From: Undibacterium umbellatum | GTDB lineage: Bacteria; Pseudomonadota; Gammaproteobacteria; Burkholderiales; Burkholderiaceae_D | Length of the DNA stretch: 64,000 nt | Assembly: GCF_014284125.1 (NCBI RefSeq) | Contig: NZ_JACOFX010000001.1 | Location: 124,001 to 188,000, forward strand | Direction of reading: 5' to 3' | Shown: piece after piece, positions 8,096-52,355 of the stretch | How positions within the stretch are numbered: the first letter of the stretch is position 1 | Layout: each line of letters opens with the position of its first letter | Position numbers and translations under genes: made by a program | The notes under the pieces: generated by a model | Databases searched by the model: none | What the model saw: only the letters and a program-made list of their open reading frames with translations | What the model was told of the DNA's origin: nothing

Positions 8096-8107
8096 GTACG
8101 GTCGTAC
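8096..8107. promoter_or_regulatory. Palindromic operator, site 1 (acyl-CoA ligase)
   Basis: The 12-bp core GTACGGTCGTAC is symmetric except for its central two bases, and is flanked by A/T. It lies 80 bases before the ligase start. It is the best-formed of six related sites in the window (others at 11236, 15114, 29757, 36155, 52344), all upstream of acyl-CoA or alcohol metabolism genes. A TetR-family repressor of fatty-acid degradation (FadP/PsrA type) is the likely binder; that is inferred. Confidence 0.75.
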
Positions 8108-8187
8108 AAAAATCGACAAAGAATAATATTCAGCAAACTAGCAAAATACCAAAGCAATCGATAATGCAGCACATTTCAGGAGAACAA

Positions 8188-9840
8188 ATGTCGTCTTATG
8201 CTATGAGCCCTTTGATGGGGCAAATGATGAATAAGCCTATGCTTATTTCCAGCCTCATCGAACATGCAGACCGTTATTTTGGGAAGAATGAAATTGTTTC
8301 TCGGAGAGTTGAAGGGGATATACATCGCTATAATTATAGCGAATGCCATAGGCGCTCCAAAAAACTCGCGAATGCTTTCGCCGAACTGGGCGTAAAAATT
8401 GGTGACCGTATCGCCACGCTGGCCTGGAATGGTTATCGACATCTGGAAGCATATTATGCGGTATCAGGTTCTGGCGCTGTCCTGCACACCATTAATCCTA
8501 GATTGCATCCAGAACAGATTGCCTACATCGCCAATCACGCTGAAGACCAGTACCTGCTGTTTGATATGACTTTCCTGCCCATAGTGCAGGCAATAGCTGC
8601 TCATTGCCCAGGAATCAAAGGTTATATCATGATGTGCGACAGGGATAAATTGCCAGCCGATGGCAAAATCCCCAATTTGATGGCTTACGAAGATTTAATT
8701 GAAGCCAATAGCGATGATTTTGTCTGGCCGGTCTTTGATGAAAACTCAGCCTCCAGCCTTTGCTACACTTCCGGCACGACAGGCAATCCTAAAGGTGCCT
8801 TGTATTCCCACCGCTCCACCATCTTACATTCATATGCTTCGTCTTTGCCAGATGGCTTGAATGTGTCAGCACGTGATTCAGTATTGCCCGTAGTGCCCAT
8901 GTTCCATGTAAATGCCTGGGGCCTGCCTTACTCTGCTCCATTGAATGGTGCCAAACTGGTTTTTCCTGGTCCGCACCTGGATGGGAAATCACTTTATGAA
9001 ATATTTGAGCAAGAGAAAGTTACTTTCTCGGCTGGTGTGCCAACTGTCTGGCTTGGGCTGCTGACCTATGTAGCGCAGAATAATTTGAAATTCTCGACTT
9101 TCAAACGTACGGTGATTGGTGGTTCTGCCTGCCCACCTGCCATGATGAAAACCCTACGTCACACCTATGGTGTTGAAGTAGTACATGCCTGGGGTATGAC
9201 GGAGATGTCGCCTTTGGGTACGGCAGGTACTTTGATGGCCAAGCACGCTGATCTGACTGAAGATGAGAAGCAAGCCATACTCCAGAAACAAGGGCATGTT
9301 TTGTATGGCGTCGAGATGAAAATCGTTGACGACGCAGGCCAGGAGTTACCCTGGGATGGTAAGACCTATGGCAATCTGCTGGTCAAGGGGCCCTGGATTA
9401 TCCATAGTTATTACAAGAATGAAGGTGGCGATGTTCTTGAAGACGGCTGGTTTCCTACCGGTGACGTAGCCACCATAGATACTGATGGCTATATGCAGAT
9501 CACTGACCGAAGTAAAGATGTGGTCAAGTCCGGTGGAGAGTGGATAGGCACGATAGATCTGGAAAATGTAGCCGTCTCTCATCCCGCAATTTTGCAAGCC
9601 GCCTGCATTGGTGTATTCCATCCAAAGTGGGATGAGCGCCCATTGTTGTTGGCGGTGAAAAAGCCGGGTGCAGAAGTCACCAGGGAGGAGTTGTTGCAAT
9701 TTTTTGATGGCAAGGTTGCAAAATGGTGGTTGCCTGACGACGTTGTTTTCGTAGAAAGTCTGCCTTTAGGGGCGACAGGGAAAATTTTGAAGAATAAACT
9801 GAGGGAGCAATTCAAGGAACATAAACTACCAACTGCATAA
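8188..9840 (+). CDS. Fatty-acid/medium- or long-chain acyl-CoA ligase
   Basis: An AMP-forming acyl-CoA synthetase that activates a carboxylic acid with ATP and CoA. The start at 8188 is preferred over an in-frame ATG at 8164 because a good ribosome site (AGGAG) lies between them; the product is 550 residues. Hallmarks in order are the phosphate-binding loop YTSGTTGNPKG (from residue 193), the VHAWGMTEMSP motif, the GWFPTGDVATID hinge region, KSGGEWIG, and the C-terminal TGKILK lysine. It belongs to the branch often annotated as fatty-acid--CoA ligase FadD3/AlkK-like; chain length is not readable. A Liv-type ABC importer and a FadB-like enzyme follow, so the ligase probably acts on an imported acid. 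Operator site 1 precedes it. Confidence 0.9.
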   Translation: MSSYAMSPLMGQMMNKPMLISSLIEHADRYFGKNEIVSRRVEGDIHRYNYSECHRRSKKLANAFAELGVKIGDRIATLAWNGYRHLEAYYAVSGSGAVLHTINPRLHPEQIAYIANHAEDQYLLFDMTFLPIVQAIAAHCPGIKGYIMMCDRDKLPADGKIPNLMAYEDLIEANSDDFVWPVFDENSASSLCYTSGTTGNPKGALYSHRSTILHSYASSLPDGLNVSARDSVLPVVPMFHVNAWGLPYSAPLNGAKLVFPGPHLDGKSLYEIFEQEKVTFSAGVPTVWLGLLTYVAQNNLKFSTFKRTVIGGSACPPAMMKTLRHTYGVEVVHAWGMTEMSPLGTAGTLMAKHADLTEDEKQAILQKQGHVLYGVEMKIVDDAGQELPWDGKTYGNLLVKGPWIIHSYYKNEGGDVLEDGWFPTGDVATIDTDGYMQITDRSKDVVKSGGEWIGTIDLENVAVSHPAILQAACIGVFHPKWDERPLLLAVKKPGAEVTREELLQFFDGKVAKWWLPDDVVFVESLPLGATGKILKNKLREQFKEHKLPTA

Positions 9841-9946
9841 GTAATGCAGGACTTGGGCTAAGCAGTGCTGGTAGTCCAGGTTCTGGAAGTAGCGATAAAA
9901 CGAAAAAATCTAGATTCCTAACAATGAGAATACCGGAGAGAGACAA

Positions 9947-11182
9947 ATGAAATTTACTTTACGTGCCAGCCTTGCTGCAGTCGCTTTAACTTTCGCCGTA
10001 CCCACAGTGATGGCTGATACCATCAAGATCGCCTATATTGATCCACTGTCGGGTCCTTTTGCACCAGTAGGGCAAAACATTCTGAATTCCTATCAGTACA
10101 TTGCTGATAAAGCCAACGCTGAGAAATGGGGTGGTGAACATAAATTCGAAGTTGTCGGTTTTGATAATAAAGGTAGTCCACAAGAGTCCTTGAATGTCCT
10201 GAAGACCGTCATCGACAAAGGCTTTCGCTACATAACACAAGGCAATGGCTCTGGCGTAGGCCTGGCTTTGCTGGATGCTGTCAACAAGCACAATGAGCGC
10301 AATCCTGGCAAGGAAATTGTTTATCTGAACCACGCTGCTGTTGATCCTGATATGACCAACAGCAAATGCAGCTTCTGGCATTTCCGTTTTGATTCAAATT
10401 CTGACATGAAAATGGAAGCGCTGACGACCTTCATGGCGGCTGATAAAAATATCCAGAAGGTTTACATCATAGGCCAGAATTACTCATTCGGTCATCAGGT
10501 AACCCGTGCCGCCAAAGAGTATCTGGCACGCAAACGTCCGGATATACAAATTGTCGGTGACGATCTCCATCCAATTGGTCAAGTTAAAGATTTCTCGCCT
10601 TATGTTGCGAAAATCAAGGCTTCTGGCGCGGATACTGTGATAACCGGTAACTGGGGGGCTGACTTGGCTTTGCTGATTAAATCTGCCAAAGATGCAGATT
10701 TGAAAGCCAATTTCTATACTTACTATGGTTCTACAACTGGTGTGCCAACGGCAATGGGCGCCTCAGGTATAGATCGTGTCAAGTATGTGGGCTACTGGAA
10801 TGCGAACAACGAAACTTTTGCCGGCAAAGACATCATTGAAGGATTTAAGGCCAAATACAAGGATGACTATTATTCCATGGCGACGTACTCTGTTTTGGCA
10901 GCTATGGGACAAGCTGTCAAACAGGCCAAGTCTATTGAACCTGCCAAAGTGGCTATAGCCCTTGAAGGATTGAATTTCAAAAGTCTGAATGGTGAAGCCA
11001 GTATGCGTAAAGTTGACCATCAAATTCAGCAACCCCTGTATATCGCTACCTGGGTAAAAACTAACGGCAAGGATGTTAAATTTGATCAGGAAAATACTGG
11101 TATGGGCTGGAAAACCAATCAAAAAATCGATGCATTTGTTGCATCTCAACCATCTTCTTGTCAGATGAAACGACCAGGCTAA
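9947..11182 (+). CDS. livK: Liv-type ABC transporter, periplasmic substrate-binding protein
   Basis: A 411-residue periplasmic binding protein of the Leu/Ile/Val (type I, Peripla_BP_6) family. A signal peptide with cleavage expected after A23 (VMA/DT) is followed by IKIAYIDPLSGPFAPVGQN, the family start. The core has VYIIGQNYSFGHQV and TGNWGADLALLIKSAKDADL. It delivers the ligand to the permease encoded downstream. The neighbours are an acyl-CoA ligase and a beta-oxidation enzyme, so the ligand may be a fatty or other carboxylic acid rather than a branched-chain amino acid; this is inference. A strong ribosome site (GGAGAGAG) precedes the ATG. A terminator separates it from livH. Confidence 0.9.
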   Translation: MKFTLRASLAAVALTFAVPTVMADTIKIAYIDPLSGPFAPVGQNILNSYQYIADKANAEKWGGEHKFEVVGFDNKGSPQESLNVLKTVIDKGFRYITQGNGSGVGLALLDAVNKHNERNPGKEIVYLNHAAVDPDMTNSKCSFWHFRFDSNSDMKMEALTTFMAADKNIQKVYIIGQNYSFGHQVTRAAKEYLARKRPDIQIVGDDLHPIGQVKDFSPYVAKIKASGADTVITGNWGADLALLIKSAKDADLKANFYTYYGSTTGVPTAMGASGIDRVKYVGYWNANNETFAGKDIIEGFKAKYKDDYYSMATYSVLAAMGQAVKQAKSIEPAKVAIALEGLNFKSLNGEASMRKVDHQIQQPLYIATWVKTNGKDVKFDQENTGMGWKTNQKIDAFVASQPSSCQMKRPG

Positions 11183-11235: not shown

Positions 11236-11247
11236 GTACGATCGTTC
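11236..11247. promoter_or_regulatory. Palindromic operator, site 2 (livHMGF)
   Basis: The core GTACGATCGTTC matches the shared pattern and sits only 27 bases before the livH GTG start, where a bound repressor would block transcription of the permease operon. Its placement right after a terminator supports an independent, co-regulated promoter. Confidence 0.7.
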
Positions 11248-11274: not shown

Positions 11275-12222
11275 GTGGAATTCACACTGATCACTTTGCT
11301 GAATGGTGTCAGTTACGGATTGCTGTTGTTCATGCTTTCGTCCGGACTGACATTGATTTTCAGCATGATGGGCGTACTCAATTTCGCTCACGCCAGTTTC
11401 TATATGTTGGGGGCTTATTTTGCTTATGCCATCAGTATCAAAATAGGCTTTTGGCCAGCTTTGGTTTTCGCACCTCTGTTGGTTGGTTTGCTGGGTGCTA
11501 TGGTCGAGCGTTATGGTCTGCGTTCGGTGCATAAATATGGACATATACCTGAATTATTGTTCACCTTTGGACTTTCCTACGTGATTGTGGAATTGGTGCA
11601 ATTGATCTGGGGACGCTCTACAGTGCCATATCCCATCCCCGCATCTCTGGATGGCCCTTTGTTTACCTTGTACACAACAACCTTTCCTATCTATCGCGGC
11701 TTCATGATGCTGGTTGCATTAGTGATGTTGGTATCGATTTATCTATTGCTGACTCGTACCCGCATAGGCCTGGTGATACAAGCGGCCCTCACACACCCCG
11801 ATACCGTAGAAGCATTAGGGCACAATGTTCCCAGAGTTTTCATGCTGGTGTTTGGCGGCGGCTGCGCACTAGCTGGGCTTGCTGGTGTCGTCGGTGGTAA
11901 TGCCTTTGTGACTGAGCCTGGTATGGCTTCCACCTTGGGTAGTATTATTTTCGTGGTGGTGGTGGTGGGTGGCATGGGCTCCTTGGCGGGGGCATTTGTG
12001 GCATCGCTGTTGATTGGCGTTTTGCAAACATTTGCCGTGGCACTGGATTATTCCTTCGTCACAATGTTTGCCAAATTGGGCATGGCCATTACCGCGAATG
12101 CGCCGGGCTATTCTTTGTTAAGTCTGACAATTGCTCAGGTTGCACCTATCTTGCCCTATCTTTTATTAGTCCTCATCCTGATTTTCAGGCCCAGAGGTTT
12201 ACTCGGTACACGCGAAGGATAA
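11275..12222 (+). CDS. livH: Liv-type ABC transporter permease LivH
   Basis: An inner-membrane permease of 315 residues with about eight hydrophobic helices. It begins at a GTG codon preceded by AAGGA. Family motifs include NGVSYGLLLFMLSSGLTLIFSMMG-type N-terminal sequence, LNFAHASFYMLGAY, and the C-terminal IFRPRGLLGTREG. The EAA-like loop ALTHPDTVEALGHNV contacts the ATPases. It forms the translocation pore with LivM. livM follows after four bases. Confidence 0.92.
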   Translation: MEFTLITLLNGVSYGLLLFMLSSGLTLIFSMMGVLNFAHASFYMLGAYFAYAISIKIGFWPALVFAPLLVGLLGAMVERYGLRSVHKYGHIPELLFTFGLSYVIVELVQLIWGRSTVPYPIPASLDGPLFTLYTTTFPIYRGFMMLVALVMLVSIYLLLTRTRIGLVIQAALTHPDTVEALGHNVPRVFMLVFGGGCALAGLAGVVGGNAFVTEPGMASTLGSIIFVVVVVGGMGSLAGAFVASLLIGVLQTFAVALDYSFVTMFAKLGMAITANAPGYSLLSLTIAQVAPILPYLLLVLILIFRPRGLLGTREG

Positions 12223-12226: not shown

Positions 12227-13513
12227 ATGAGCAAACCTTTAGTATTCAAACCCATCAACTTGGCGCGCTGGATCATCTGGAGCAGTTTTGCCATCCTGCT
12301 GATCCTGGCACCTATGATGTTTAACACCGGTGGATCATTGTCCCTGCTCTCCCAAATGGGGACGCTGATGATCTTCGGTCTTTCCTACAATATGTTATTG
12401 GGGCAAGGAGGGATGCTGTCCTTTGGACATGCGGTTTATTCCGGCCTGGGAGCTTTTTTCTCCATTCATGCAATGAATCTGATGACTGCTGGCAGCATGA
12501 CTTTCCCAGTCAGCATGATCCCTTTGATCGGCGGTATTGCTGGTATGTTTTTTGGCGTCTTGTTTGGGTATGTCACGACTAAAAAATCAGGTACGACTTT
12601 CTCCATGATCACCCTTGGTATGGTGGAGCTGGTGTTTGCCTGTTCGCTAATGTTCCCGAGTTTTTTCGGCGGGGAAGGCGGTATTTCTACCAATCGCGTG
12701 ATAGGGTCATCCTTTCTCGGCATCACATATGGACCACAAATCCAGGTGTACTACCTGATCGCTTTCTGGCTATTCATCAGCACCATCGGTATGTATGCAT
12801 TTACGCAAACTCCATTGGGGCGCATCGTCAATGCTGTACGTGATAATCCTGAGCGGGTTGAGTTCATTGGCTACGATACGCAATGGGTGCGTTACCTGAC
12901 GTTGATTTTGTCCGCTTTTTTTGCAGGTATTGCCGGTGGTTTATCGGCCATAAATTTTGAAATTGTGACCGCAGAAAATGTCAGTGCTATACGTTCAGGT
13001 GCAGTCTTGCTATTCACCTTTATTGGTGGTGTAGGCTTTTTCTTTGGCCCCATGATAGGGGCAATCCTGGGCGTGTTTTTGACCGTGATGTTGTCTGACC
13101 TGACCAAGGCCTGGCAATTATATTTAGGTGTTTTCTTCATCCTCATCGTCATGTATGCACCCGGTGGCATAGCAAGCATCATCATGATGAATTTGCGCGT
13201 TGCCAAGTTTGGCATGTTTAAACGTGTCTGGCCCAGTATGTGGAAATTGGTACTTGCAGCAACAGTGACGACAGCTGGTGTCATATTGGCAGTGGAAATG
13301 CTGTATCAACGCACTTTGGAAGCGACTCAAAGCGCAGTCATAGAGATGTTTGGTGTTTCCATAGATACGGCCAGTAGTAGCTGGTGGCTAATGACGATCA
13401 TCGTTATTGCCCTGGGTATTTTTGCCTGCGCCAAACTCAAAGGAGGTTTTGCGCAACACTGGGGTGACGTCAATACTGAAATCGAAGAACAAATGCGGAG
13501 GGCGCAAGCATGA
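12227..13513 (+). CDS. livM: Liv-type ABC transporter permease LivM
   Basis: The second inner-membrane permease of the importer, 428 residues. The core has the LivM hallmarks YNMLLGQGGMLSFGHAVYSGLGAF and RIVNAVRDNPERVEFIGYD (the ATPase-contact loop), and YAPGGIASIIM. About 100 residues follow that motif with two extra hydrophobic stretches (near 340-360 and 385-405), longer than E. coli-type LivM. The function of this extension is not known. Its stop overlaps the livG start (ATGA). Confidence 0.92.
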   Translation: MSKPLVFKPINLARWIIWSSFAILLILAPMMFNTGGSLSLLSQMGTLMIFGLSYNMLLGQGGMLSFGHAVYSGLGAFFSIHAMNLMTAGSMTFPVSMIPLIGGIAGMFFGVLFGYVTTKKSGTTFSMITLGMVELVFACSLMFPSFFGGEGGISTNRVIGSSFLGITYGPQIQVYYLIAFWLFISTIGMYAFTQTPLGRIVNAVRDNPERVEFIGYDTQWVRYLTLILSAFFAGIAGGLSAINFEIVTAENVSAIRSGAVLLFTFIGGVGFFFGPMIGAILGVFLTVMLSDLTKAWQLYLGVFFILIVMYAPGGIASIIMMNLRVAKFGMFKRVWPSMWKLVLAATVTTAGVILAVEMLYQRTLEATQSAVIEMFGVSIDTASSSWWLMTIIVIALGIFACAKLKGGFAQHWGDVNTEIEEQMRRAQA

Positions 13514-14274
13514 CAGGCTTTTCGCTTGAATTAATAGATGTACGTAAATCATTTGGTAGTGCAGAAATCATCCGGGGAGCAAGTTTGCAGGTGCCAAAAG
13601 GCGAGCGCTTCGCCATCATTGGCCCCAATGGAGCCGGGAAATCTACATTATTCAATTTGATTTCTGGCCGTTTCCCGATTACATCCGGAGATATCTTGCT
13701 GAATGGTGAGAGCATCACTACGCTGAAGCCCTATGAAATCAATCGGCGCGGCTTGTCGCGCAGCTTTCAGATTACGAATATTTTTCATCGCCTGTCTGTG
13801 TATGAAAACTTGCGCTGTGCAGTGCTTTGGTCGCTAGGATACAAATATTCATTTTGGGACAGGTTGAATGGCTTGAAAGACGCGCATGAGAGGGCAGAAG
13901 CTGTTCTGGAGCAAATTGGACTCAAGCGCAGGCGCAACATTACGGCTGGCTTGTTGACCTATGCCGAGCAAAGGGCATTGGAAATTGGTATCACTATCGC
14001 GGGTGGTGCCGATGTGATCCTGTTGGATGAACCGACTGCTGGCATGAGTCGCTCTGAGTCTGATGCAGCAGTAGAATTAATACGTAAAGTCACAGTCGGT
14101 AAATCATTGTTGATGGTTGAGCATGATATGAGTGTGGTCTTCGGTTTGGCCGATAAAATTGCAGTTGTCGTGTATGGCGAAGTGATTGCTTGTGATACTC
14201 CAGCCAATATCCGCAACAATCAAAAAGTCAAAGACGCTTATCTTGGCGGTCATGCACCGGTGGAGGTTGAATGA
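13510..14274 (+). CDS. livG: Liv-type ABC transporter ATP-binding protein LivG
   Basis: ATPase subunit of 254 residues. The Walker A loop GPNGAGKST is intact (near residue 38). The signature region reads LLTYAEQRALEIG in place of LSGGQ, as is usual for LivG, and Walker B is VILLDEPTAGMS followed by the switch histidine in LLMVEHDM. It pairs with LivF on the cytoplasmic face. Start and stop both overlap neighbours by four bases, so the operon is tightly coupled. Confidence 0.93.
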   Translation: MTGFSLELIDVRKSFGSAEIIRGASLQVPKGERFAIIGPNGAGKSTLFNLISGRFPITSGDILLNGESITTLKPYEINRRGLSRSFQITNIFHRLSVYENLRCAVLWSLGYKYSFWDRLNGLKDAHERAEAVLEQIGLKRRRNITAGLLTYAEQRALEIGITIAGGADVILLDEPTAGMSRSESDAAVELIRKVTVGKSLLMVEHDMSVVFGLADKIAVVVYGEVIACDTPANIRNNQKVKDAYLGGHAPVEVE

Positions 14275-14981
14275 GTTTGCTTACGATTAAGAATCTCAAT
14301 GCCTACTATGGCAAGAGCCATGTCTTGCATGGAGTGGACATGCAGGTCAATGCTGGCGAAATTGTCAGCCTGCTGGGACGCAATGGTGTTGGTCGTTCTA
14401 CGACGGTCAAGGCGACTATGGGGCAAGTGGATGCAACAGGTTCTATCCTCTTCAAAGGCGAGGAAATCATTGGACTTAAGGCCTTTCAGATTGCGCATAA
14501 AGGTTTGGGTTATGTACCTGAAAACCGCGATATTTTTCCAACTTTGACTGTTGAACAGAACTTGATGCTTGGTCAGAAGTCTGGTCGCACGACGGGCGAT
14601 AAGCCACGCTGGAGCATGGAGGATATGTACCAGATGTTCCCGCGCCTGCGTGAACGCAGAAATACCCAGGCGGGGGTGATGTCAGGTGGTGAGCAGCAAA
14701 TGCTGACACTGTGCCGTACCTTGATGGGCGATCCTGACCTGATCATGATTGACGAGCCGACGGAAGGCCTGGCGCCAAAGATCGTCGAGCTGGTGGCCGA
14801 GTATCTCAAAGAGCTAAAAAATCGCGGCATATCGGTTTTGCTGGTAGAGCAAAAATTGGCAATTGCGCTTGAAATTTCGCAAAGAGTGTATGTTATGGGT
14901 CATGGCAGCATCGTGTTTGAAGGTACGCCCGCAGAATTGCGGGTAAATGAAAACATCCGCAAGGAATGGCTGGAAGTGTAA
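14271..14981 (+). CDS. livF: Liv-type ABC transporter ATP-binding protein LivF
   Basis: The second ATPase, 236 residues. All motifs are in order: Walker A GRNGVGRST (36-44), Q-loop region, signature MSGGEQQM, Walker B LIMIDEPTEGL, and VLLVEQKL. Oddly, the invariant Walker A lysine is an arginine (R42, codon CGT at 14394-14396). LivG keeps its lysine. The change could make this site degenerate or weakly active, or may be a recurrent variant in this LivF branch. The coding frame is otherwise intact, so it is not a pseudogene. Confidence 0.92.
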   Translation: MSLLTIKNLNAYYGKSHVLHGVDMQVNAGEIVSLLGRNGVGRSTTVKATMGQVDATGSILFKGEEIIGLKAFQIAHKGLGYVPENRDIFPTLTVEQNLMLGQKSGRTTGDKPRWSMEDMYQMFPRLRERRNTQAGVMSGGEQQMLTLCRTLMGDPDLIMIDEPTEGLAPKIVELVAEYLKELKNRGISVLLVEQKLAIALEISQRVYVMGHGSIVFEGTPAELRVNENIRKEWLEV

Positions 14982-15113
14982 AAGCATGTAATTGAAGCAT
15001 TGAGACAGCTCCAGAAATTTTGGGGCTGGCCATTTTTATGACTACGCATCTCTGGTGCTATCGACTGGTATTTTGAATTGAATAAAGAAAAGAAAAAATT
15101 TTAAATTAAAATA

Positions 15114-15125
15114 ATACGACCGTTC
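15114..15125. promoter_or_regulatory. Palindromic operator, site 3 (FadB-like gene)
   Basis: The core ATACGACCGTTC matches the shared pattern, 96 bases before the downstream start. A TATAGT at 15136-15141 could be the -10 element, in which case the operator overlaps the -35 region, a typical repressor position. Confidence 0.7.
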
Positions 15126-15221: not shown

Positions 15222-17300
15222 ATGAGCGCAGAATACCAAGTTAACGGCAATGTCGCCGTTATTACCCTGAACAATCCGCCTGTTAATGGTCTGGGTCATG
15301 CTACCCGTACTGCGGTGGTAAATGGCATGAAACAGGCACTGAATGATGATGCAGTGAAAGCTATCGTCATCACTGGTGCCGGTAAAGCATTCTCCGGCGG
15401 TGCTGACATTAAGGAATTCAACTCTCCCAAGGCATCTGCAGAACCTAGTCTGCATACTGTCATTAATGTGGTTGAGAGTTCTGATAAACCTGTCATTGCC
15501 GCTATTCATACGGTATGTATGGGCGGTGGCTTGGAACTGGCTCTGGGCTGTAATTATCGCGTCGCATCCAAAGGCGCACAAATTGCCCTGCCAGAAGTTA
15601 AATTAGGCATCTTACCGGGTGCTGGCGGTACGCAACGTTTGCCGCGCGTGTTGGGTTTGGAAATGGCTTTGAACATGGTTGTTTCCGGTACAGCGGTGCC
15701 GTCAGAAAAACTGGCCAAGACAGCGATTTTCAATGAAGTGGTAGAAGGCGATGTACTGGAAGCTGCACTCGCATTTGCGGCTAAAGTTGCTGATGTCCGT
15801 CCTTTGCCTAGAGTGCGCGATATCAAGATCGATTATCCGAACTATGAAGCGTATTTGCAATTCTCACGCAATACAGTGCGTGCCATGGCTGGCCCTTTCC
15901 CTGCACCTTTGAAATGTGTGGAAGCAGTGGCGGCCGCAGTTACCAAGAAATTTGATGATGGCATCAAGTTTGAGCGTGAACTGTTTGTTGATCTGGTGCA
16001 AACCACAGAATCCAAAGCCCTACGTCATGCCTTCTTTGGAGAGCGTGCTGCCAGTAAATTGCCAGACGTACCGGATGACACACCAACTCGCCCTATCAAA
16101 TCCGTCGCCGTTATCGGTGCAGGCACCATGGGCGGCGGAATAGCCATGAATTTTGCCAATGCAGGTATTCCTGTGCAAATTCTGGAAATGAAGCAGGAAG
16201 CACTGGATAAAGGCTTGGCAACGATACGCAAGAATTATGAAAACACGCTTAAAAAAGGCAAGCTGACTCAAGAGAAATTTGATCAGCGTGTAGGCCTGAT
16301 CACAGGTACTTTGTCGTATGAAGAGATTGCCCAGGCAGATATCGTCATTGAAGCAGTGTTTGAAGATATGGGTGTCAAGGAGCAAGTCTTCAAGAAACTC
16401 GATGAAGTCATGAAGAAGGGCGCAATTCTGGCGTCGAACACTTCAACACTGGATGTCGACAAGATTGCTGACTTCACTAAACGTCCTGAAGATGTTATTG
16501 GTACTCACTTCTTCAGCCCAGCAAATGTCATGAAATTGCTGGAAATCGTGCGTGGCAAGAAAACCACCAAAGATGTGCTGGCGACTGTGTTGGGCTTGTC
16601 CAAAAAAATCAAGAAAACTGGAGTGGTGTCCGGAGTTTGCGATGGTTTCATTGGTAATCGCATGATAGAACAATACAGCCGTCAGGCAGGTTTCTTGCTG
16701 GAAGAGGGCTGTACACCTGAACAGGTTGATAAAGCGGTAGAGAAGATGGGTTTTGCCATGGGACCTTTCCGTATGGGCGACTTAGCTGGCAATGATATCG
16801 GCTGGTATATCCGCAAGCGCCGTTACGTAGAAAAGCCACAAATTACCTATTCCAAAACAGCAGATTTGCTGTGTGAACTTGGTCGCTTCGGTCAAAAAAC
16901 CGGTGCGGGTTGGTACGACTATAAGCCTGGCGACCGCAAAGCTTATCCTTCATCTATCGTGAATGACATGATCATCAAACACTCAGCTGACCTCGGTGTG
17001 GAGCGTCGCAAGATTTCTGATCAGGAAATCGTCGAGCGCCTGATTTTTTCATTGGTCAATGAGGCAGCCTATATTCTTGAAGAGGGTATAGCAACACGTG
17101 CGTCTGATATCGATATGGTATATCTGACAGGTTATGGCTTCCCATTGCACACTGGTGGCCCTATGTTCTATGCAGATACCGTGGGATTGCCAAATGTGGT
17201 CATGGCCATGGAGAAATATGCCAAAGGCCGTCATGGCGATGCCTGGAAGCCAGCACCTTTGTTGGCAAAGCTGGCTGCAGAAGGAAAAACTTTCAATTAA
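15222..17300 (+). CDS. Bifunctional enoyl-CoA hydratase/3-hydroxyacyl-CoA dehydrogenase (FadB-like)
   Basis: A 692-residue multifunctional beta-oxidation enzyme. The N-terminal crotonase domain (about 1-190) retains both expected catalytic glutamates, in GGGLELALG and PEVKLGILPGAGGTQ, so it should hydrate enoyl-CoA. A Rossmann domain begins near residue 290 (VAVIGAGTMGGGIAMNFANAG) and carries SNTSTLD and THFFSPANVMKLLEI with the catalytic histidine. C-terminal 3HCDH domains complete the dehydrogenase. This is the peroxisomal-like single-gene architecture, shorter than E. coli FadB. No thiolase gene is adjacent. Operator site 3 precedes it and ties it to the ligase and ABC genes upstream. Confidence 0.93.
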   Translation: MSAEYQVNGNVAVITLNNPPVNGLGHATRTAVVNGMKQALNDDAVKAIVITGAGKAFSGGADIKEFNSPKASAEPSLHTVINVVESSDKPVIAAIHTVCMGGGLELALGCNYRVASKGAQIALPEVKLGILPGAGGTQRLPRVLGLEMALNMVVSGTAVPSEKLAKTAIFNEVVEGDVLEAALAFAAKVADVRPLPRVRDIKIDYPNYEAYLQFSRNTVRAMAGPFPAPLKCVEAVAAAVTKKFDDGIKFERELFVDLVQTTESKALRHAFFGERAASKLPDVPDDTPTRPIKSVAVIGAGTMGGGIAMNFANAGIPVQILEMKQEALDKGLATIRKNYENTLKKGKLTQEKFDQRVGLITGTLSYEEIAQADIVIEAVFEDMGVKEQVFKKLDEVMKKGAILASNTSTLDVDKIADFTKRPEDVIGTHFFSPANVMKLLEIVRGKKTTKDVLATVLGLSKKIKKTGVVSGVCDGFIGNRMIEQYSRQAGFLLEEGCTPEQVDKAVEKMGFAMGPFRMGDLAGNDIGWYIRKRRYVEKPQITYSKTADLLCELGRFGQKTGAGWYDYKPGDRKAYPSSIVNDMIIKHSADLGVERRKISDQEIVERLIFSLVNEAAYILEEGIATRASDIDMVYLTGYGFPLHTGGPMFYADTVGLPNVVMAMEKYAKGRHGDAWKPAPLLAKLAAEGKTFN

Positions 17301-26361: not shown

Positions 26362-26814
26362 TTAGTAGCAACGTGAAATGGATTCTGCCACACAGACTGG
26401 CTTATCTTGGCCCTCACGTTCTATCGTAACCTCCCAGGTGAATTGGGCGCCATCATTGATATCTTCGATTTCCAGTAATTTCAAACGTGCGCGCAGTTTG
26501 CTACCAACAGGAACAGGGGAGGGGAAGCGAACCTTGTTGAGACCATAGTTCACGCCCATTTTGACGTAAGTGAGTTTGATGGCATTAGCAACCAGCATGG
26601 GCAGCAAGGACAAAGTCAAAAAGCCATGTGCAATCGGCCCACCAAACGGGGATTCACGTTTGGCTCTTTCTACATCAATGTGTATCCACTGATGGTCGCC
26701 AGTTGCATCAGCAAAAGTGTTCACCCTTTCTTGACTGATTTCTACCCATTCAGAGTGGGCAACTTCCTGACCTATCAAGTCTTTTAATTCTGCAAGGCTA
26801 TTGAATTCTCTCAT
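26362..26814 (-). CDS. MaoC-family (R)-specific enoyl-CoA hydratase-like protein
   Basis: A 150-residue hotdog-fold hydratase. The ATG at 26814 with GAGGAGA upstream is the start; the frame continues further but without family similarity. The hydratase-2 motif is clear: FADATGDHQWIHID, then PFGGPIAHGFLTLSL. It should hydrate or dehydrate an acyl-CoA thioester. Its 16-base distance from the second MaoC gene points to a heterodimer. Confidence 0.88.
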   Translation of the reverse strand: MREFNSLAELKDLIGQEVAHSEWVEISQERVNTFADATGDHQWIHIDVERAKRESPFGGPIAHGFLTLSLLPMLVANAIKLTYVKMGVNYGLNKVRFPSPVPVGSKLRARLKLLEIEDINDGAQFTWEVTIEREGQDKPVCVAESISRCY

Positions 26815-26830
26815 TTTGTCTCCTCGTTTT

Positions 26831-27292
26831 TTAACCTGGACGGCGGCCAAACATTCCCATGCCAGCAATCGTGCAAACCAGCTTGCCTTCCTGGTTATAA
26901 GCTTTCCACAGGGTATTGATGACACCCCGGTCTGGTTTTGAGGCCGAGAGTTTACTACCCGTGGTCTCGGCTGTAACACTCAGAATATCACCAGGCCGCA
27001 CTGGCAGTATCCAACGAATCTCATCAACGCCAGGTGAGCCCATGCTGCTTGAATTGGCCAAGAAGCCATCAACCACCATGCGCATGATCATGCCGCAGGT
27101 ATGCCAGCCGCTGGCGATCACGCCGCCAAAGATGGAGTGACTTGCTACTTCTTTATCGACATGAAAAGATTGCGGGTCGAACTGCTTTGCAAAGCTGATG
27201 ATTTCTTCTTCCGTTACTATACGCTGTCCCAGTTCTATGATCGTGCCGGGAACAAAGTCTTCAAAATACCAGCGATCTGTTTTGATACTCAT
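26831..27292 (-). CDS. MaoC-family dehydratase
   Basis: A 153-residue hotdog-fold protein. The start at 27292 (MSIKTDRWYFEDF) is preceded by GAGGA; a longer frame upstream crosses a terminator and is rejected. The motif FDPQSFHVD with a downstream FGGVIASGWHT is a variant of the hydratase-2 signature. It precedes the first MaoC gene and probably forms a complex with it. Both follow two acyl-CoA dehydrogenase genes on the same strand, but a hairpin terminator separates the pairs. Confidence 0.87.
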   Translation of the reverse strand: MSIKTDRWYFEDFVPGTIIELGQRIVTEEEIISFAKQFDPQSFHVDKEVASHSIFGGVIASGWHTCGMIMRMVVDGFLANSSSMGSPGVDEIRWILPVRPGDILSVTAETTGSKLSASKPDRGVINTLWKAYNQEGKLVCTIAGMGMFGRRPG

Positions 27293-27332
27293 AGTGTGTC
27301 CTCGTTGTTTCCTTATTGTTTTAAAGCGCAAA

Positions 27333-27361: not shown

Positions 27362-27369
27362 TAAGGCAA

Positions 27370-28509
27370 TCAGGCTGCGTTTTTAAAGCCGGGTTGTGCC
27401 ACAAATCTGGCCAGGTGATGATCGGTGTCACCCAGTGTCAGCTCTATCGTGGTCAAGCGTTTGAACATGTGGGCAACTGGCAGTTCATTGGTGACGCCCA
27501 TACCACCATGCAATTGCACGGCTTGCTGGCCTATGTATTTGGCAGCCTGGCCTATCCTTGCTTTGGCGGCAGATACCGTGCGGCGGCGTTCTTCGACATC
27601 ATCAGAGGCTATCTTGACGGCAGCCAGTGTTGCCATGGAGCGGGCTTGTTCCATTTCCATGAACATTTCTGCCATACGATGTTGCAAAACCTGGAATTTC
27701 CCGATAGGCACGCCAAATTGCTGACGGGTTTTCAGGTATTCGAGGGTAGTTGATGTAATCGCCTCCATGATGCCTATGGATTCTGCACAAAGCAGGGTAA
27801 CGCCGTAATCAGCAACAGCATCCAGCAATTCCCAGCCACTGTCCACGGTACTTAACAGTGCATCCGCTCCGACTTGTACATTGCTGAAACTAATATCAGC
27901 CGCACGATAACCATCAATGGTGCGGTAATCGCGTAGGCTGATGCCCTCTGCGTTGGCATCAACGATAAACAGGCTGATGCCATTTGTGTCGCGCTGCGCA
28001 CCACTGCTTCGTGCTGAGACGATCAGTTTATTTGCCTGAGCACCGTGCAGCACCACGGTCTTGCGGCCATTGATAACAAAACCGTCTGCAGTCTTGCTGG
28101 CAGAGGTGACAATGTCAAACAGGTCATAGCGAGATTGTCTCTCGCCCAGTGCGTTCGCCAGTTTGATTTCGCCACCAGCGATTTGTTCCAGTACATCCGC
28201 ATGCGTGCCGGATTTTTTCAAAAACTCTGCACCCATGACAGTGGCAAAGTAGGGTTCGATAACAATACCGCGGCCCAGTTCCTGCATGATGACCAGCATG
28301 TCGATGGCCGAACCATTAAAGCCACCCTGTTCTTCAGGAATGGGTAGGGCTAGTGCCCCCAGATCTGTCAGGCCAGCCCACGCTTTTGCAGATACACCTT
28401 CGGCCGATTCTATGATCTGCTTACGCTGTTCAAAGCCGTAGTCTTTTTCTACCCAGCGACGCAAGGCATCAGCAAACTGTGTTTGTTCTTGTGTTAAGTT
28501 AAAATCCAT
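27370..28509 (-). CDS. Acyl-CoA dehydrogenase (paired, second gene)
   Basis: An FAD-dependent acyl-CoA dehydrogenase of 379 residues. N-terminal helical domain starts MDFNLTQEQTQFADALRRW; the middle barrel has NGRKTVVLHGAQANKLIVSAR; the C-terminal domain has KTRQQFGVPIGKFQVLQHRMAEM and QLHGGMGVTNELPVAHMFKRL. Near the C terminus TTIELTLGDTDHH places a glutamate where many ACADs have the catalytic base. The adjacent ACAD gene lacks it in that position, so the two may form a heteromer. Upstream gene is 10 bases away. Confidence 0.9.
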   Translation of the reverse strand: MDFNLTQEQTQFADALRRWVEKDYGFEQRKQIIESAEGVSAKAWAGLTDLGALALPIPEEQGGFNGSAIDMLVIMQELGRGIVIEPYFATVMGAEFLKKSGTHADVLEQIAGGEIKLANALGERQSRYDLFDIVTSASKTADGFVINGRKTVVLHGAQANKLIVSARSSGAQRDTNGISLFIVDANAEGISLRDYRTIDGYRAADISFSNVQVGADALLSTVDSGWELLDAVADYGVTLLCAESIGIMEAITSTTLEYLKTRQQFGVPIGKFQVLQHRMAEMFMEMEQARSMATLAAVKIASDDVEERRRTVSAAKARIGQAAKYIGQQAVQLHGGMGVTNELPVAHMFKRLTTIELTLGDTDHHLARFVAQPGFKNAA

Positions 28510-28519: not shown

Positions 28520-29710
28520 TCACAGACCCAGGATCATCTGGGTGATGATATTTTTCTGAATTTCGTTAGAGCCACCATAAATGGAAGTCTTGCGGAAATT
28601 GAAGTAATACGGTGCCAGCGGTGCAGCATCATCGTCGCCGACTATGCTATGTTCAGTCTCACCTTCGAGGAAGGCAGGATCAAACGGCAGTCCATAGGGG
28701 CCGACTGCTTCCACCATCAACTCCGTAAGCCTTTGCTGGATTTCTGTCCCCTTGATCTTGAGCAGGGATGCTTCTGGGCCAGGACGGCCACTGTCTTGCG
28801 AAATGACGCGCAGTACAGTGATTTCCAGTGCCATCAATTCCACTTCCAGACTGGCAACCTTGCTGGCATAAACGGCATCGTCAATCAGTGGCAGGCCATT
28901 CTTTTGATGTTTGGCAGCTATGCGTTTAAGGAATTGCAATTCGCGTTTGGCACGTCCAACGGCAGCGATATTCGTACGCTCATGGCCAAGCAAGTATTTG
29001 GCATAAGTCCAGCCCTTGTTTTCTTCACCTATCAAATTCTCTACTGGGACTTTGACATTGTCGAAGAATACTTCATTCACTTCATGATCTTCATCCAGCA
29101 TGATGATGGGGCGTACGGTAATGCCCGGCGTTTTCATGTCTATCAGCAGGAAGGAAATGCCTTCTTGCTTGCGCACACCAGTGTCGGTACGCACCAGACA
29201 GAAAATCATGTCTGCATGCTGGGCGAGGGTGGTCCAGGTTTTCTGACCGTTGACGATGTAGTGGTCGCCTTCGCGCTCGGCGCGTGTCTTCAGGGATGCA
29301 AGGTCAGAGCCTGAACCTGGTTCTGAGTAACCCTGGCACCACCAGTCTTCGCAGCTCAATATGCGCGGCAGGTAATAGTCTTTTTGTGTCTGGTTGCCAA
29401 AGGCCATGATGACGGGGGCCACCATATTCACGCCAAAGGGCAGGATTGCGGGTGTGCCAGCCCGGGCACATTCTTCTTCAAAGATATGGCGCTGGGTTGC
29501 TGTCCAGCCTGTGCCACCATATTCTGCTGGCCAGCCTGTGGCTACCCAACCCTGTTTGGCCAATATCTTGTGCCAGCGAACAAAGTCTTCTCTGGACAGG
29601 CGTTTATGATTCAATACTTTTTGCTGCAGGTCTTGTGGAAGATTGGCTTCCAGGTAGGTGCGTACCTCGTCCCGGAAGGCAAGGTCTTCTGCCGTATAGT
29701 TCAAATCCAT
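28520..29710 (-). CDS. Acyl-CoA dehydrogenase (paired, first gene)
   Basis: A 396-residue acyl-CoA dehydrogenase. Key motifs are CEDWWCQGYSEPGSGSDLASL, NGQKTWTTLAQHADMIFCLVRT, and the C-terminal FNFRKTSIYGGSNEIQKNI. In the last motif the position that carries the catalytic glutamate in medium- and short-chain enzymes (Y-E-G) is glycine, as in isovaleryl- and long-chain enzymes or in the non-catalytic subunit of heteromeric steroid-type ACADs. First gene of the operon, with operator site 4 46 bases upstream. Confidence 0.9.
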   Translation of the reverse strand: MDLNYTAEDLAFRDEVRTYLEANLPQDLQQKVLNHKRLSREDFVRWHKILAKQGWVATGWPAEYGGTGWTATQRHIFEEECARAGTPAILPFGVNMVAPVIMAFGNQTQKDYYLPRILSCEDWWCQGYSEPGSGSDLASLKTRAEREGDHYIVNGQKTWTTLAQHADMIFCLVRTDTGVRKQEGISFLLIDMKTPGITVRPIIMLDEDHEVNEVFFDNVKVPVENLIGEENKGWTYAKYLLGHERTNIAAVGRAKRELQFLKRIAAKHQKNGLPLIDDAVYASKVASLEVELMALEITVLRVISQDSGRPGPEASLLKIKGTEIQQRLTELMVEAVGPYGLPFDPAFLEGETEHSIVGDDDAAPLAPYYFNFRKTSIYGGSNEIQKNIITQMILGL

Positions 29711-29756: not shown

Positions 29757-29768
29757 GCACGACCGTTC
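29757..29768. promoter_or_regulatory. Palindromic operator, site 4 (paired ACAD genes)
   Basis: The core GCACGACCGTTC fits the shared pattern with a single change in the left half. It lies 46 bases upstream of the first ACAD start, in a likely promoter position. Confidence 0.65.
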
Positions 29769-33663: not shown

Positions 33664-34923
33664 TTAGGAACGGGTAATTGGCAAACCCAGGTCTTCCGTC
33701 AGGCTGATGTGCTTGGCCAGTTCCAGTTTGGCGATCGCATTTCTGTGCACTTCATCCGGGCCATCTGCCAGGCGTAGGGTACGATTGCCAGCCCATTGTG
33801 CCGCCAGCGGGAAGTCGCCAGAAACACCGCCAGCACCATGCGCTTGTATGGCCCAGTCCAGCACTTGCTGTGTGACATTGGGTGCCAATACCTTGATCAT
33901 GGCAATCTCTGCCTGTGCATGCTTGTTGCCTACAGTATCCATCATGTAAGCCGCCTTTAGTGTCAGCAGACGTGCCGTGTCGATTTGTATGCGCGATTCG
34001 GCAATGCGCTCACGCCAGATACTTTGTTCTGAGATTTTCTTGCCAAAGGCGGTGCGGCTGTTCAGACGTTTGCACATTAATTCCAGCGCTCTTTCTGCGA
34101 CACCGATGGCACGCATGCAGTGATGGATGCGCCCAGGGCCAAGGCGCCCCTGGGCAATCTCAAAACCCCGGCCTTCACCTAAAAGAATATTCGATGCAGG
34201 TACACGCACGTTTTCAAACAGGATTTCGCAATGACCATGTGGTGCATCGTCGTAACCAAATACGGGAAGAGGGCGGACAACTGTTATGCCCGTAGTTTTG
34301 GCATCTACCAGTATCATGGATTGTTGTGAGTGGCGCGCGGCATTGAAATCGGTCTTGCCCATCAATATATACACCGCACAACGAGGGTCACCTGCGCCAG
34401 ATATCCACCACTTGTGACCATTGATGACATAGTCATCGCCATCGCGGTCTATGCGGGTTTCGATATTGGTGGCGTCAGATGAGGCAACGCCAGGTTCGGT
34501 CATGGCAAAGGCAGAACGGATTTCGCCGCGCAAGAGTGGTTCCAGCCATTGCTTCTTGTGTTCCTCGCTGCCATAGCGTTCTATGGTTTCCATATTGCCA
34601 GTATCTGGCGCGGAGCAATTGAATACTTCTGGCGCCCAACTTACGCGACCCATGATTTCGCAAAGTGGCGCGTAATCCAGGTTCGACAGGCCTTCTGGCG
34701 CACGTACCGATTTTGGTAGGAATAAATTCCACAAACCTTGTGCACGTGCTTTTGGCTTTAAATCTTCGATGATCTGGGTGGCGATCCAGCGATTGCCTTT
34801 TTCCAGACCATTGCGGTCAATTTCTTCCTTATACGCCTTTTCATTAGGATAAATATGTTCATCCATGAAACGCAATAGCCTGCCTTGTAAATCTTTACAG
34901 CGATCTGAGTATTCGAATTCCAT
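33664..34923 (-). CDS. Acyl-CoA dehydrogenase, ACAD10/11-like
   Basis: A 419-residue flavoenzyme of the ACAD10/11 branch. Evidence: [69 protein letters not shown], and the C-terminal [21 protein letters not shown] followed by [13 protein letters not shown]. In mammals this domain is fused to a kinase domain and acts with it on 4-hydroxyacyl-CoA. Here the kinase-like partner is encoded as a separate gene directly upstream (69 bases), forming a two-gene operon. Confidence 0.9.
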
Positions 34924-34992: not shown

Positions 34993-36060
34993 TTACTTTT
35001 TAGCGTAGCTCCAGCCCAGCTCAGCCATGGGGCGAGCTGCTTCTCCAGATTTCTTGGCCTGTGCGCTGGATGCCGTGCCATCAACATAGCGTTTCATGAT
35101 GCCTTGCAAAATCCCGGCCATGCGGAACAGGTTGTAGGCCAGATAAAAATTGAAATCTTCCTGGCGTATGGTTTTACCTGTGCGTTCGCAATACTTGGCA
35201 ATGTATTCCTGCTCATTCGGGATGCCCAATGCCTTGTGATCAAGACCGGCAATGCCACGGAACTGGCCAGGCGTGACATGCCAGCTCATGCAGTGATATG
35301 AAAAATCAGCCAGGGGATGGCCGAGCGTAGAGAGCTCCCAATCCAATATTGCCATGATGCGTGGTTCGGTCGGGTGGAACATCATATTGTCGAGGCGGTA
35401 ATCGCCATGCACGATGCTGGTATCATCACCAGGCGGGATATTGTGTGGCAGCCACTCAATAAGATTGTCCATCGCTTCTATCTTTTCAGTCTCGGAAGCG
35501 CGATATTGCTTGGTCCAGCGGTCTATCTGACGGGCAAAGTAGTTGCCAGGCTTGCCGTAGTCGGCCAGACCGATGGCGGCGTAGTCGATGGTGTGCAATT
35601 GCGCGATGACGCGATTCATTTCGTCGTAGATTTCACCGCGTTGAGCTGGCGTCATGCCGGGCAGAGATTGATCCCAAAGCACCCGACCATCAACAAATTC
35701 CATGATGTAAAATGCGCGCCCCAATGCATCCTCATCGGTGCACAACGCATATTGCCGTGCTGCCGGAAAGCCTGCTTTGTTCAAGGCATTCATGACCTTG
35801 AATTCACGTTCTATGGCATGTGCAGAAGGTAGTAGCTTTGCTACCGGGCCAGGCTTGGCACGCATAACATAACGCTGCTCGCCCGCACTGAGTTTGAAAG
35901 TGGGGTTGGACTGCCCACCCTTGAATTGCTCCACCACCAGCTTGTCTGCCAGCGAAGCGTTGAAACCTTCCACATGCTGACGCATATAGTCTGCCAGTGC
36001 CGCCACATCAAATTTCTGACGCTCTGCTACCGGCATGGTGCCCATGAATTCTTCGAACAT
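34993..36060 (-). CDS. APH-family phosphotransferase (ACAD10/11 kinase-like)
   Basis: A 355-residue kinase of the aminoglycoside-phosphotransferase/ACAD10-11 type. The ATG at 36060 follows GGAGG and is preferred over an upstream TTG. An ATP-binding segment FKGGQSNPTFKL and the invariant catalytic HGDYRLDN followed by ILDWELSTLG, where the first D is the base and the second binds metal, are intact. Homologues LvaA (levulinate catabolism) and the N-terminal domains of ACAD10/11 phosphorylate 4-hydroxyacyl-CoA. Antibiotic resistance is unlikely given context and sequence. Operator site 5 lies upstream. Confidence 0.88.
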   Translation of the reverse strand: MFEEFMGTMPVAERQKFDVAALADYMRQHVEGFNASLADKLVVEQFKGGQSNPTFKLSAGEQRYVMRAKPGPVAKLLPSAHAIEREFKVMNALNKAGFPAARQYALCTDEDALGRAFYIMEFVDGRVLWDQSLPGMTPAQRGEIYDEMNRVIAQLHTIDYAAIGLADYGKPGNYFARQIDRWTKQYRASETEKIEAMDNLIEWLPHNIPPGDDTSIVHGDYRLDNMMFHPTEPRIMAILDWELSTLGHPLADFSYHCMSWHVTPGQFRGIAGLDHKALGIPNEQEYIAKYCERTGKTIRQEDFNFYLAYNLFRMAGILQGIMKRYVDGTASSAQAKKSGEAARPMAELGWSYAKK

Positions 36061-36154
36061 CGGTGCCTCCAAATTGTTTCAGTTTTTGTATGATCTTACT
36101 CCTGGCACAGGTGGATGTGCTGGATGAGCGAAAACTATTCTAACTCAAATAATA

Positions 36155-36166
36155 GAACGTTCGTAC
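36155..36166. promoter_or_regulatory. Palindromic operator, site 5 (kinase/ACAD pair)
   Basis: The core GAACGTTCGTAC fits the shared pattern and is flanked by AATA and TATT, extending the dyad. It lies 94 bases upstream of the phosphotransferase start and 81 before the divergent orphan gene; the acyl-CoA genes are the likelier target. Confidence 0.7.
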
Positions 36167-49595: not shown

Positions 49596-49603
49596 AGTCA
49601 ACC

Positions 49604-50626: not shown

Positions 50627-51135
50627 GGAACGTCCTTCAGGTTTGGTTATAAAAGGAGCGAAACTTGGACCGCTGAAATGGGTACTGCGACCAACTCATA
50701 CCTTGGGACATGAGCCGGGAGCCGCAGCAAGTATGCAAAGACAGTGGAAGTTAAATAATTTCAGCGAATTAGCTTTTTAACATGGGCGGAAACGGCGGCA
50801 TTACTGTTTTTTCTAGAATGCGACCTCTAGTTTTCCGTAATCAATATGTCATTTTTTGTGCGTAGATATAAGAAAAAACTATCTTTTCTGGATGCTGATG
50901 CAAACTTTGGAATGCATGCAGTGTGAGGCGGCGTCAGGCTGGATAAGGGGGATGGCTGAATTGTCAATGAATTGCAGTTCGGTAGGGGCTTACGCGAAGG
51001 ATTGTGTTGGGTGGGGTATAAGGGGATGAAAATTTCAAAAATCGCGGATAATGATGTTGTTAATAAGTAACGGCAGGATCTGCAGGGACTTGCCATCTTT
51101 TTATTTCAGAAAATGACAAGTCCCATGTATGCACA
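50627..51135. other. Intergenic region without a recognised gene
   Basis: About 510 bases between the phospholipase-like gene's promoter side and the 3' end of the alcohol dehydrogenase gene. Short frames here lack ribosome sites and family similarity. A 12-bp imperfect inverted repeat (51085-51096 with 51113-51124) lies 12 bases past the dehydrogenase stop and may end its transcript. Otherwise I see nothing. Confidence 0.5.
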
Positions 51136-52296
51136 CTACAAACTTAATTCCAATACCTGACGACTGACATCCAGCGTCACATCTCGTTTTTCACCCAGGC
51201 CGACCATACGGTGGGTTTCCAGTGCTGATAGAATAGGAGCAATATCATCGCTGCCAAGCTGATAGTCGCTGAGGCGGGTTTTGACGCCCATCTGCTCAAA
51301 GTAATCCTGCATGCGGCTGATGGCTGTTTCTATACGGCTGTCTTCGTCACCATCATGTAAGCCCCAGACGCGTTCTGCAAACTGTAGCAACTTTGCCCGC
51401 TTGCCTTCCTTGCGTACCCGTAGCATGCTGGGCAGCACTATAGCCAGGGTTTGGGCGTGGTCGATGTTATGCAAGGCTGTCAGTTCATGGCCTATCATAT
51501 GCGTTGCCCAGTCTTGTGGTACACCAGTCGAGATCATGCCATTCAGGGCCATGGTGGCGCACCACATGAGATTGGCGCGCACGTCATAATCTTCTGGGTT
51601 CGCCAGGGCTTTCGGGCCTTCTTCTATCAGTGTCAGCAGCAGGCCTTCGGCAAATCTGTCTTGCACTGGTGAATTCACCGGGTAAGTCAGGTATTGTTCC
51701 ATGACGTGAACAAAGGCATCAACGGCGCCGTTACCTATCTGGCGTACTGGCAGGGTAAAGGTTTTGGTCGGGTCCAGTACCGAGAATTGCGGGAAGCAAT
51801 GGCGGCTGGAGAAAGCCATTTTTGCCTTGATGGATTTGCGGGTGACGACGCCACCATTGTTCATTTCAGAGCCGGTAGCCGGCAAGGTCAGTACGCTGCC
51901 AAAAGGCATGGCCTTGGTTACATTGCTGCCGCGTTTTTCCATGATGGCCCAGGGATCGCCGCCTTCAAACAGTGCTGCAGCGGCGATGAATTTGGTGCCG
52001 TCAATGACAGAGCCGCCGCCAACTGCAAGCAAAAAATCGATCTTGTTTTGTTTGATGAGATCGACGGCCTTCATCAGGGTTTCATAGCTGGGGTTTGGCT
52101 CTATACCAGTAAATTCGGTGACTTTGCGTGTGCCAAGTGCTGCGATGACTTCATCATAAACACCATTTTGTTTGATGCTGCCACCACCATACAGCATCAG
52201 CACATGGGCTTCGGCCGGAATGGCTTTGTTCAGGTCGGCTATGCGCCCTTTACCAAACAGGATTTGTGTTGGGTTATAAAAATCAAAATTCAGCAT
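51136..52296 (-). CDS. Iron-containing alcohol dehydrogenase (YqhD/butanol dehydrogenase-like)
   Basis: A 386-residue group III alcohol dehydrogenase using NAD(P)H to interconvert aldehydes and alcohols. The start at 52296 is chosen because GGAGGA precedes it with six bases; the codon at 52302 would touch the ribosome site. Cofactor motif GGGSVIDGTKF and LPATGSEMNNGGV are typical, and metal ligands lie in the segments GAVDAFVHVMEQYLT, GHELTALHNIDHAQTLA. The closest type is NADPH-dependent YqhD. Operator site 6 lies 47 bases upstream, hinting at co-regulation with acyl-CoA genes. Confidence 0.9.
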   Translation of the reverse strand: MLNFDFYNPTQILFGKGRIADLNKAIPAEAHVLMLYGGGSIKQNGVYDEVIAALGTRKVTEFTGIEPNPSYETLMKAVDLIKQNKIDFLLAVGGGSVIDGTKFIAAAALFEGGDPWAIMEKRGSNVTKAMPFGSVLTLPATGSEMNNGGVVTRKSIKAKMAFSSRHCFPQFSVLDPTKTFTLPVRQIGNGAVDAFVHVMEQYLTYPVNSPVQDRFAEGLLLTLIEEGPKALANPEDYDVRANLMWCATMALNGMISTGVPQDWATHMIGHELTALHNIDHAQTLAIVLPSMLRVRKEGKRAKLLQFAERVWGLHDGDEDSRIETAISRMQDYFEQMGVKTRLSDYQLGSDDIAPILSALETHRMVGLGEKRDVTLDVSRQVLELSL

Positions 52297-52343
52297 ATGC
52301 ATTCCTCCAGAAAGAAGACATCTTAGCGCAAATAGAAAAAATC

Positions 52344-52355
52344 GACCGGTCGTGC
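52344..52355. promoter_or_regulatory. Palindromic operator-like site 6 (alcohol dehydrogenase), weak
   Basis: The sequence GACCGGTCGTGC keeps the right half of the shared pattern (CGTGC) but its left half is altered. It lies 47 bases before the dehydrogenase start. It could be a lower-affinity copy or a chance match. Confidence 0.4.

Follow-up and report, generated by a model that had tools for sequence, protein, structure and literature searches.

The stretch analyzed here, called the window below, spans 64,000 nucleotides of the 6.46-Mb draft genome of Undibacterium umbellatum (positions 124001 to 188000 of contig C15, NZ_JACOFX010000001.1), and our subject is a palindromic site that recurs in it upstream of genes for acyl-CoA metabolism. 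The site is 12 bp long, GNACGNNCGTNC, and lies within an A/T-rich palindromic frame, aATAGnACGNNCGTnCTATt. An earlier note on this DNA had listed six such sites, with one pattern common to all of them and with 27 to 96 bases between each site and a start codon. All six strings were found at the positions that it gave. Five of them, at 8096, 11236, 15114, 29757 and 36155, matched the pattern RNACGNNCGTNY, and their distances to the start codon were 56, 27, 96, 46 and 82 bp, respectively. The sixth, at 52344 (GACCGGTCGTGC), fell outside the pattern, as it has ACC in place of ACG in its left half.

Searches of Pfam and NCBIfam confirmed the identities proposed for the ligase, for livH and the genes that follow it, for the FadB-type fusion, for the paired acyl-CoA dehydrogenases (ACADs), for the APH-type kinase with its ACAD, and for the iron alcohol dehydrogenase. 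Operator 1 (GTACGGTCGTAC, 8096..8107; operators are given without strand) precedes a gene for an AMP-binding acyl-CoA ligase (8164..9840, plus strand), which scored above the NCBIfam cut-off for 3-(methylthio)propionyl-CoA ligase. It is located between a weak -35-like TTGACG (8085) and a -10-like AAAAAT (ending at 8113). Such promoter-like hits (10 and 7) were no commoner than in shuffled sequences (12.4 and 8.1), and this placing is therefore only a hint. The ligase gene is followed on the same strand by a gene for a livK-type substrate-binding protein (9947..11182), and operator 2 (GTACGATCGTTC, 11236..11247) lies inside the cluster, in front of genes for livH-type (11275..12222) and livM-type (12227..13513) permeases and for livG-type (13510..14274) and livF-type (14271..14981) ATPases, all on the plus strand. 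Operator 3 (ATACGACCGTTC, 15114..15125), downstream of a terminator-like hairpin (15006-15028), precedes a gene for a FadB-type enoyl-CoA hydratase/3-hydroxyacyl-CoA dehydrogenase fusion (15222..17300, plus strand).

The remaining two operators stand before genes on the minus strand. Operator 4 (29757..29768; GCACGACCGTTC, or GAACGGTCGTGC when read towards the gene) precedes a PimC-like ACAD (28520..29710; 535.9 bits, below the cut-off of 623.85) and a PimD-like ACAD (27370..28509; 387.7 bits, below the cut-off of 652.7). Two genes for MaoC-type hydratases on the same strand (26831..27292 and 26362..26814) likely belong to the same operon as this pair. In its arrangement, the whole group (26362-29710) resembles the ChsE1/E2 and ChsH1/H2 pairs of mycobacteria. 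Operator 5 (36155..36166; GAACGTTCGTAC, or GTACGAACGTTC when read towards the gene) precedes a gene for an APH-type phosphotransferase (34993..36072, minus strand) and the ACAD gene after it (33664..34923, minus strand). The weak sixth site (52344..52355) lies before the gene for an iron alcohol dehydrogenase (51136-52302, minus strand).

Two patterns were used for counting, RNACGNNCGTNY in the window and the tight pattern RNACGNNCGTWC across the genome. The window held 8 matches to the former, compared with 1.79 expected, and none of 100 shuffles gave as many. Besides the five named sites, there were matches at 17094, 34202 and 49689; these three lie within coding sequence and were treated as background. 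The last of them, a strong match (ATACGGTCGTTC, 49689-49700), is inside the gene at 49604-50626 and 88 bp before the start of a PpiC-type gene (48207-49601).

We then examined the upstream regions of orthologous genes in a family set of 116 genomes, with all counts taken from high-scoring relatives in that set. The site was present before the FadB-like gene in 20/20 loci (hand-picked from matches in 82/116 genomes). It stood before the PimC-like ACAD gene in 29/29 loci and before the APH kinase/ACAD pair in 27/29, each set being the best 30 loci of its search minus our own genome (matches in 79/116 and 69/116 genomes, respectively). For the ligase, 20 loci were collected. Three had no ligase match, and L204 and L208, where the alignment was cut at the end of the locus, were left out; the site was found in 14 of the 15 with a full, readable upstream region. 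As a control, livK had no such site upstream in any of 17 relatives, and the alcohol dehydrogenase gene (29 related loci; matches in 37/116 genomes) had none in 29/29. When the 250 bp upstream were aligned for the four units other than livH, the best-conserved 12-mer coincided with the operator or overlapped it in each of them (conservation of 0.91 to 0.98, compared with means of 0.41 to 0.53). In the alcohol dehydrogenase alignment, the best 12-mer reached 0.55 and was located away from 52344. The earlier note had named the lack of sites upstream of orthologues as an outcome that would speak against a shared operator. By this measure four units were strongly supported, livH was supported in part (7/17 relatives), and the sixth site was not (0/29). 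With no relative keeping it and no conserved block at its position, 52344 was rejected as a member of the regulon.

The tight pattern gave 63 distinct sites in the genome, 26 of them intergenic and 37 within called genes. Since noncoding DNA makes up 15.2% of the sequence examined, the intergenic share is far above background (binomial P = 6e-7). When the three-base core was replaced by 23 others with the same GC content in an unchanged palindromic frame, 40/351 matches were intergenic. The other adverse outcome named in the earlier note was a background frequency of the motif in coding regions, where 37 of the 63 matches lie. A reversed-pattern control (141 matches per strand versus 1441) was set aside because the reversed core, TGC/GCA, was assumed to occur very often in genomes of this kind; the equal-GC cores were used instead. 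The likeness among the sites could in principle be due to chance, with CpG-containing palindromes chosen by eye. A background does exist, as the matches within genes show, and 52344 is such a case. Nevertheless, the window count that no shuffle reached and the conservation of five sites at orthologous promoters leave this explanation with next to no credibility.

Genes around the sites outside the window were called by codon usage, and for 21 of the 26 intergenic sites a called start followed within 250 bp. One more site, a 27th on contig C48, overlaps a called start. Judged by sequence, 12 of the 26 precede acyl-CoA or importer units. Five of these are the units of the window. The others are a TetR-ACAD-FadB-FadA-ECH row; a thiolase-ACAD-SDR unit with a divergent MFS transporter gene (184 and 213 bp); a gene for an AMP-binding ligase with a divergent hydrolase gene; the ETF-QO gene with a divergent SDR gene; an ETF beta-alpha-ACAD unit at 259 bp from its site; a second PimC-like ACAD gene (C26:39603-40781), with the operator 65 bp upstream; and a gene for another AMP-binding ligase, with the site 236 bp away. 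The product of the second PimC-like gene is 63% identical to that encoded in the window, and argJ follows that gene.

The earlier note had placed the regulator outside the window, and a likely one was found on contig C13. The genome has 29 matches to TetR_N, and in 3 of them a site lies within 100 bp of the start or over it. One of the three, here called TetR1 (C13:7940-8563, minus strand), heads the TetR-fadE-fadB-fadA-ech row, a predicted operon. It has the domains PF00440 (32.5 bits; cut-off, 24) and PF16925 (93.7 bits; cut-off, 27), and over 207 residues it is identical to proteins of Undibacterium hunanense and U. pigrum. The closest structure to its AlphaFold model (predicted local distance difference test score, 93.3) was the TetR protein 2hyj. 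No match of TetR1 to the PsrA equivalog was found at an E value of 0.001. A search for a sequence named FadP gave none among the best 120 of 7795 protein matches, and the plasmid matches were all below 60% identity.

Close relatives of TetR1 were taken as the best 80 of 146 matches from a scan of named genomes. The operator begins 32 to 198 bp before the TetR1 match in all 80, and the remainder of these loci held 39 pattern matches in 923,722 bases. An ACAD homologue was present in 80/80 loci and a FadB homologue in 74/80. In five loci (L144, L147, L148, L151 and L159; Duganella, Pseudoduganella and two metagenome-assembled genomes), a second palindrome, GCACG[TC]TCGTGC, was seen at position -183 or -184 relative to the TetR1 match. 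At the level of the order, relatives at an E value of 1e-40 were found in 50/300 sampled genomes (53 matches). Forty of them were analyzed over 3.2 kb per locus; 37 had the operator before the TetR1 relative, and 25 had an ACAD homologue nearby.

The recognition helix of TetR1 corresponds to residues 47 to 54 of the model, within the stretch SKSGVFAHFGSR, which was present in 80/80 close relatives. Among the 29 TetR_N matches of the genome, only TetR1 has this helix. In the order set, loci with FAHFG-type helices (one of them FARFG) had a GAACG half in 30/32 operators, and 1/33 loci had no site; those with FSR[IV]G-type helices had a GAACG half in 0/5 operators, mostly GCACG instead, and 2/7 had no site. 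The association between helix type and the GAACG half was significant (Fisher P = 5e-5, a value that ignores the kinship of the sequences). The half-sites therefore vary together with the helix, which points to TetR1 as the reader of the site. The operators of the FSR[IV]G loci (L302, L304, L305, L307 and L315) often had ttt flanks, and the others, with GAACG or GTACG halves, had ata or aac flanks.

The density of sites also followed the presence of TetR1. On average, 1.65 pattern matches per Mb were found in the 97 family genomes with TetR1, compared with 0.34 in the 19 without it, a contrast that is confounded because the genomes without TetR1 represent few genera and have a smaller size. 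In genomes of 3 to 4 Mb, the counts were 2 to 15 with TetR1 (n = 28) and 0 to 3 without it (n = 7). It could be argued that a regulator of another family uses these sites and that the FadP-like gene is merely one more target, given that the TetR1 gene is itself a target and that a binder cannot be named from sequence alone. The tracking of the half-site letters with the TetR1 helix and, with its confounding, the density of the sites make this account very improbable.

Taken together, these data lead us to propose that the five sites are very probably operators of TetR1, a TetR repressor of FadP type whose gene lies on a different contig and which acyl-CoA or a related intermediate would release. 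On the sequence evidence, we regard the five as marking a real, conserved FadP-type regulon to which the sixth does not belong. The suggestion of the earlier note that one TetR regulator of fatty-acid metabolism, perhaps FadP, acts through one palindrome is thus favored by the comparative data for five units and not for the alcohol dehydrogenase unit.

Several observations weigh against this proposal. Fewer than half of the relatives retained the internal livH site, and the density contrast is open to the confounding described above. One genome, G031 (91% complete), has 9 pattern matches and no TetR1 match. Among the 40 order-level relatives, 15 had no ACAD homologue nearby and may be paralogues, and 3 had no site. 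Of the 26 intergenic sites, 14 have no acyl-CoA unit behind them. They precede the gene of a second TetR protein (TetR2), two zinc oxidoreductase genes, a lipase-like gene together with an OmpW gene, porin genes, a gene for GTP cyclohydrolase II, a phosphoglycerate-kinase-like gene (named by sequence only), a fourth TetR gene and others without a clear link. Some of these 14 are surely background. Finally, two TetR genes besides that of TetR1 have a site within 100 bp, and 254 bp upstream of the fourth (C27:14588) there is a weaker match, GAACGTGCGTGT, so that regulators may share sites.

TetR2 (C13:9430-10068) is PsrA/NicR-like and adjoins TetR1; its operator is at 9351 in locus L047. Its nearest NCBIfam model was that of PsrA (NF053516, 70 bits against a cut-off of 300), it has a TetR_C_30 domain, and the closest solved structures were NicR and 2fbq, which we take to be PA3006/PsrA. 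We considered whether the sites are bound by TetR2 in place of TetR1 or by both proteins, in view of the adjoining genes, both with an operator, and of its resemblance to the PsrA model (far below the cut-off), NicR and 2fbq. The TetR2 gene was present in 11/80 TetR1 loci, and the operator preceded it in all 11. The operator stood before TetR1 in 80/80 loci regardless, which shows that the site is independent of TetR2, and the TetR2 sequence is without the conserved SKSG[VL]F helix. A binding role for TetR2 therefore seems improbable, and we favor the reading that its gene is one more target. The third gene, that of the orphan TetR3, has a perfect palindrome, GAACGATCGTTC, over its start region (C48:131595), and the gene before it looks to us like a transposase gene. 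Binding of the window sites by TetR3 could be imagined from this palindrome. However, TetR3 was found in 1/116 family genomes at an E value of 1e-30 and the sites occur family-wide, which makes this option vanishingly improbable, and TetR3 was rejected as the regulator.

We propose the following mechanism for TetR1, in which binding, repression and release are drawn from knowledge of the family and from the data on Ralstonia. A TetR1 dimer would bind the A/T-framed ACG-NN-CGT palindrome, with one recognition helix for each ACG half-site. Bound 27 to 96 bp before the start codon, it would hinder RNA polymerase and block transcription. Incoming fatty or dicarboxylic acids would be activated, and their CoA thioesters would bind the C-terminal domain of TetR1 and free the DNA. 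The release would jointly raise the functions of the ligase, the importer, the dehydrogenases and the FadB-type enzyme, plus the repressor itself via the site at its own gene. The site 27 bp before livH, inside the ligase-livKHMGF cluster, may give separate control of the permeases in Undibacterium and a few neighbors.

A wider arrangement may be considered tentatively, as possible if somewhat short of probable. It would be a two-repressor circuit, in which FadP controls itself, monocarboxylic beta-oxidation, a pimelate-type diacid module made up of the PimCD-like ACADs and the MaoC pair, with a Liv-type acid importer, and also a second TetR, PsrA/NicR-like, that was gained as its neighbor, with FSR[IV]G paralogues reading the GCACG half-site across the order. 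If so, a common switch would govern the use of fatty and dicarboxylic acids and a downstream regulator. In this genome, a single operator is predicted to serve about a dozen acyl-CoA units, and an orphan motif is now linked to a candidate regulator that is open to testing. The natural covariation of helix and operator offers a way to read how FadP-type TetR proteins choose their DNA. The results also suggest that the use of diacids and of fatty acids may share one switch, which bears on the bacterial breakdown of plastic monomers. Among open-licence PMC papers, none on a fatty acid degradation regulon in Undibacterium was found.

PsrA of gamma- and betaproteobacteria is likewise a fatty-acid regulator of the TetR family. 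Its motif is of the CAAAC/GTTTG type, unlike the palindrome described here, and TetR1 has a TetR_C_13 domain, unlike the PsrA-like TetR2. The fold of the TetR1 model matched acyl-CoA-bound Bacillus FadR and AibR, a match that is generic. As in PimCD of Rhodopseudomonas palustris and the PimCD-like pair of Ralstonia CL21, the ACAD genes of the window are paired, and their nearest models are pimC and pimD; unlike PimCD, both score below the curated cut-offs. In the CL21 study, the pair of that strain shows fitness defects on C8-C12 diacids (PMC12543098).

The closest parallel is FadP. In Ralstonia, Burkholderia and Comamonadaceae, this TetR protein regulates the degradation of fatty acids, as described from 25 genomes in three groups (PMC5343134), and in R. 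solanacearum its regulon comprises 12 operons with 27 genes (PMC12543098). In Ralstonia CL21, FadP is ABZR87_RS07470, and its neighbor, RS07475, is an ACAD gene; fitness data indicate that it represses the adjoining beta-oxidation operon, and deletion of FadP improved growth on adipate (PMC12543098). Like FadP in that study, TetR1 is a TetR-family protein that adjoins a beta-oxidation operon, with an ACAD gene directly after it (PMC12543098). As in the FadP regulon, several beta-oxidation operons are dispersed over the Undibacterium genome with a common operator, and the order, Burkholderiales, is the same. Undibacterium is absent from the three FadP groups as named in PMC5343134. The targets predicted here extend to a Liv-type importer and to PimCD-like ACADs accompanied by a MaoC pair, and some species add a second TetR gene to them. 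The assignment of TetR1 to FadP is likely, as it fits in family, gene order, targets and bacterial order. The regulon predicted here is thus a sound and fairly ordinary extension of the known FadP regulon. Two points in it were less expected: the operator also precedes a second TetR gene, and helix and operator covary among paralogues.

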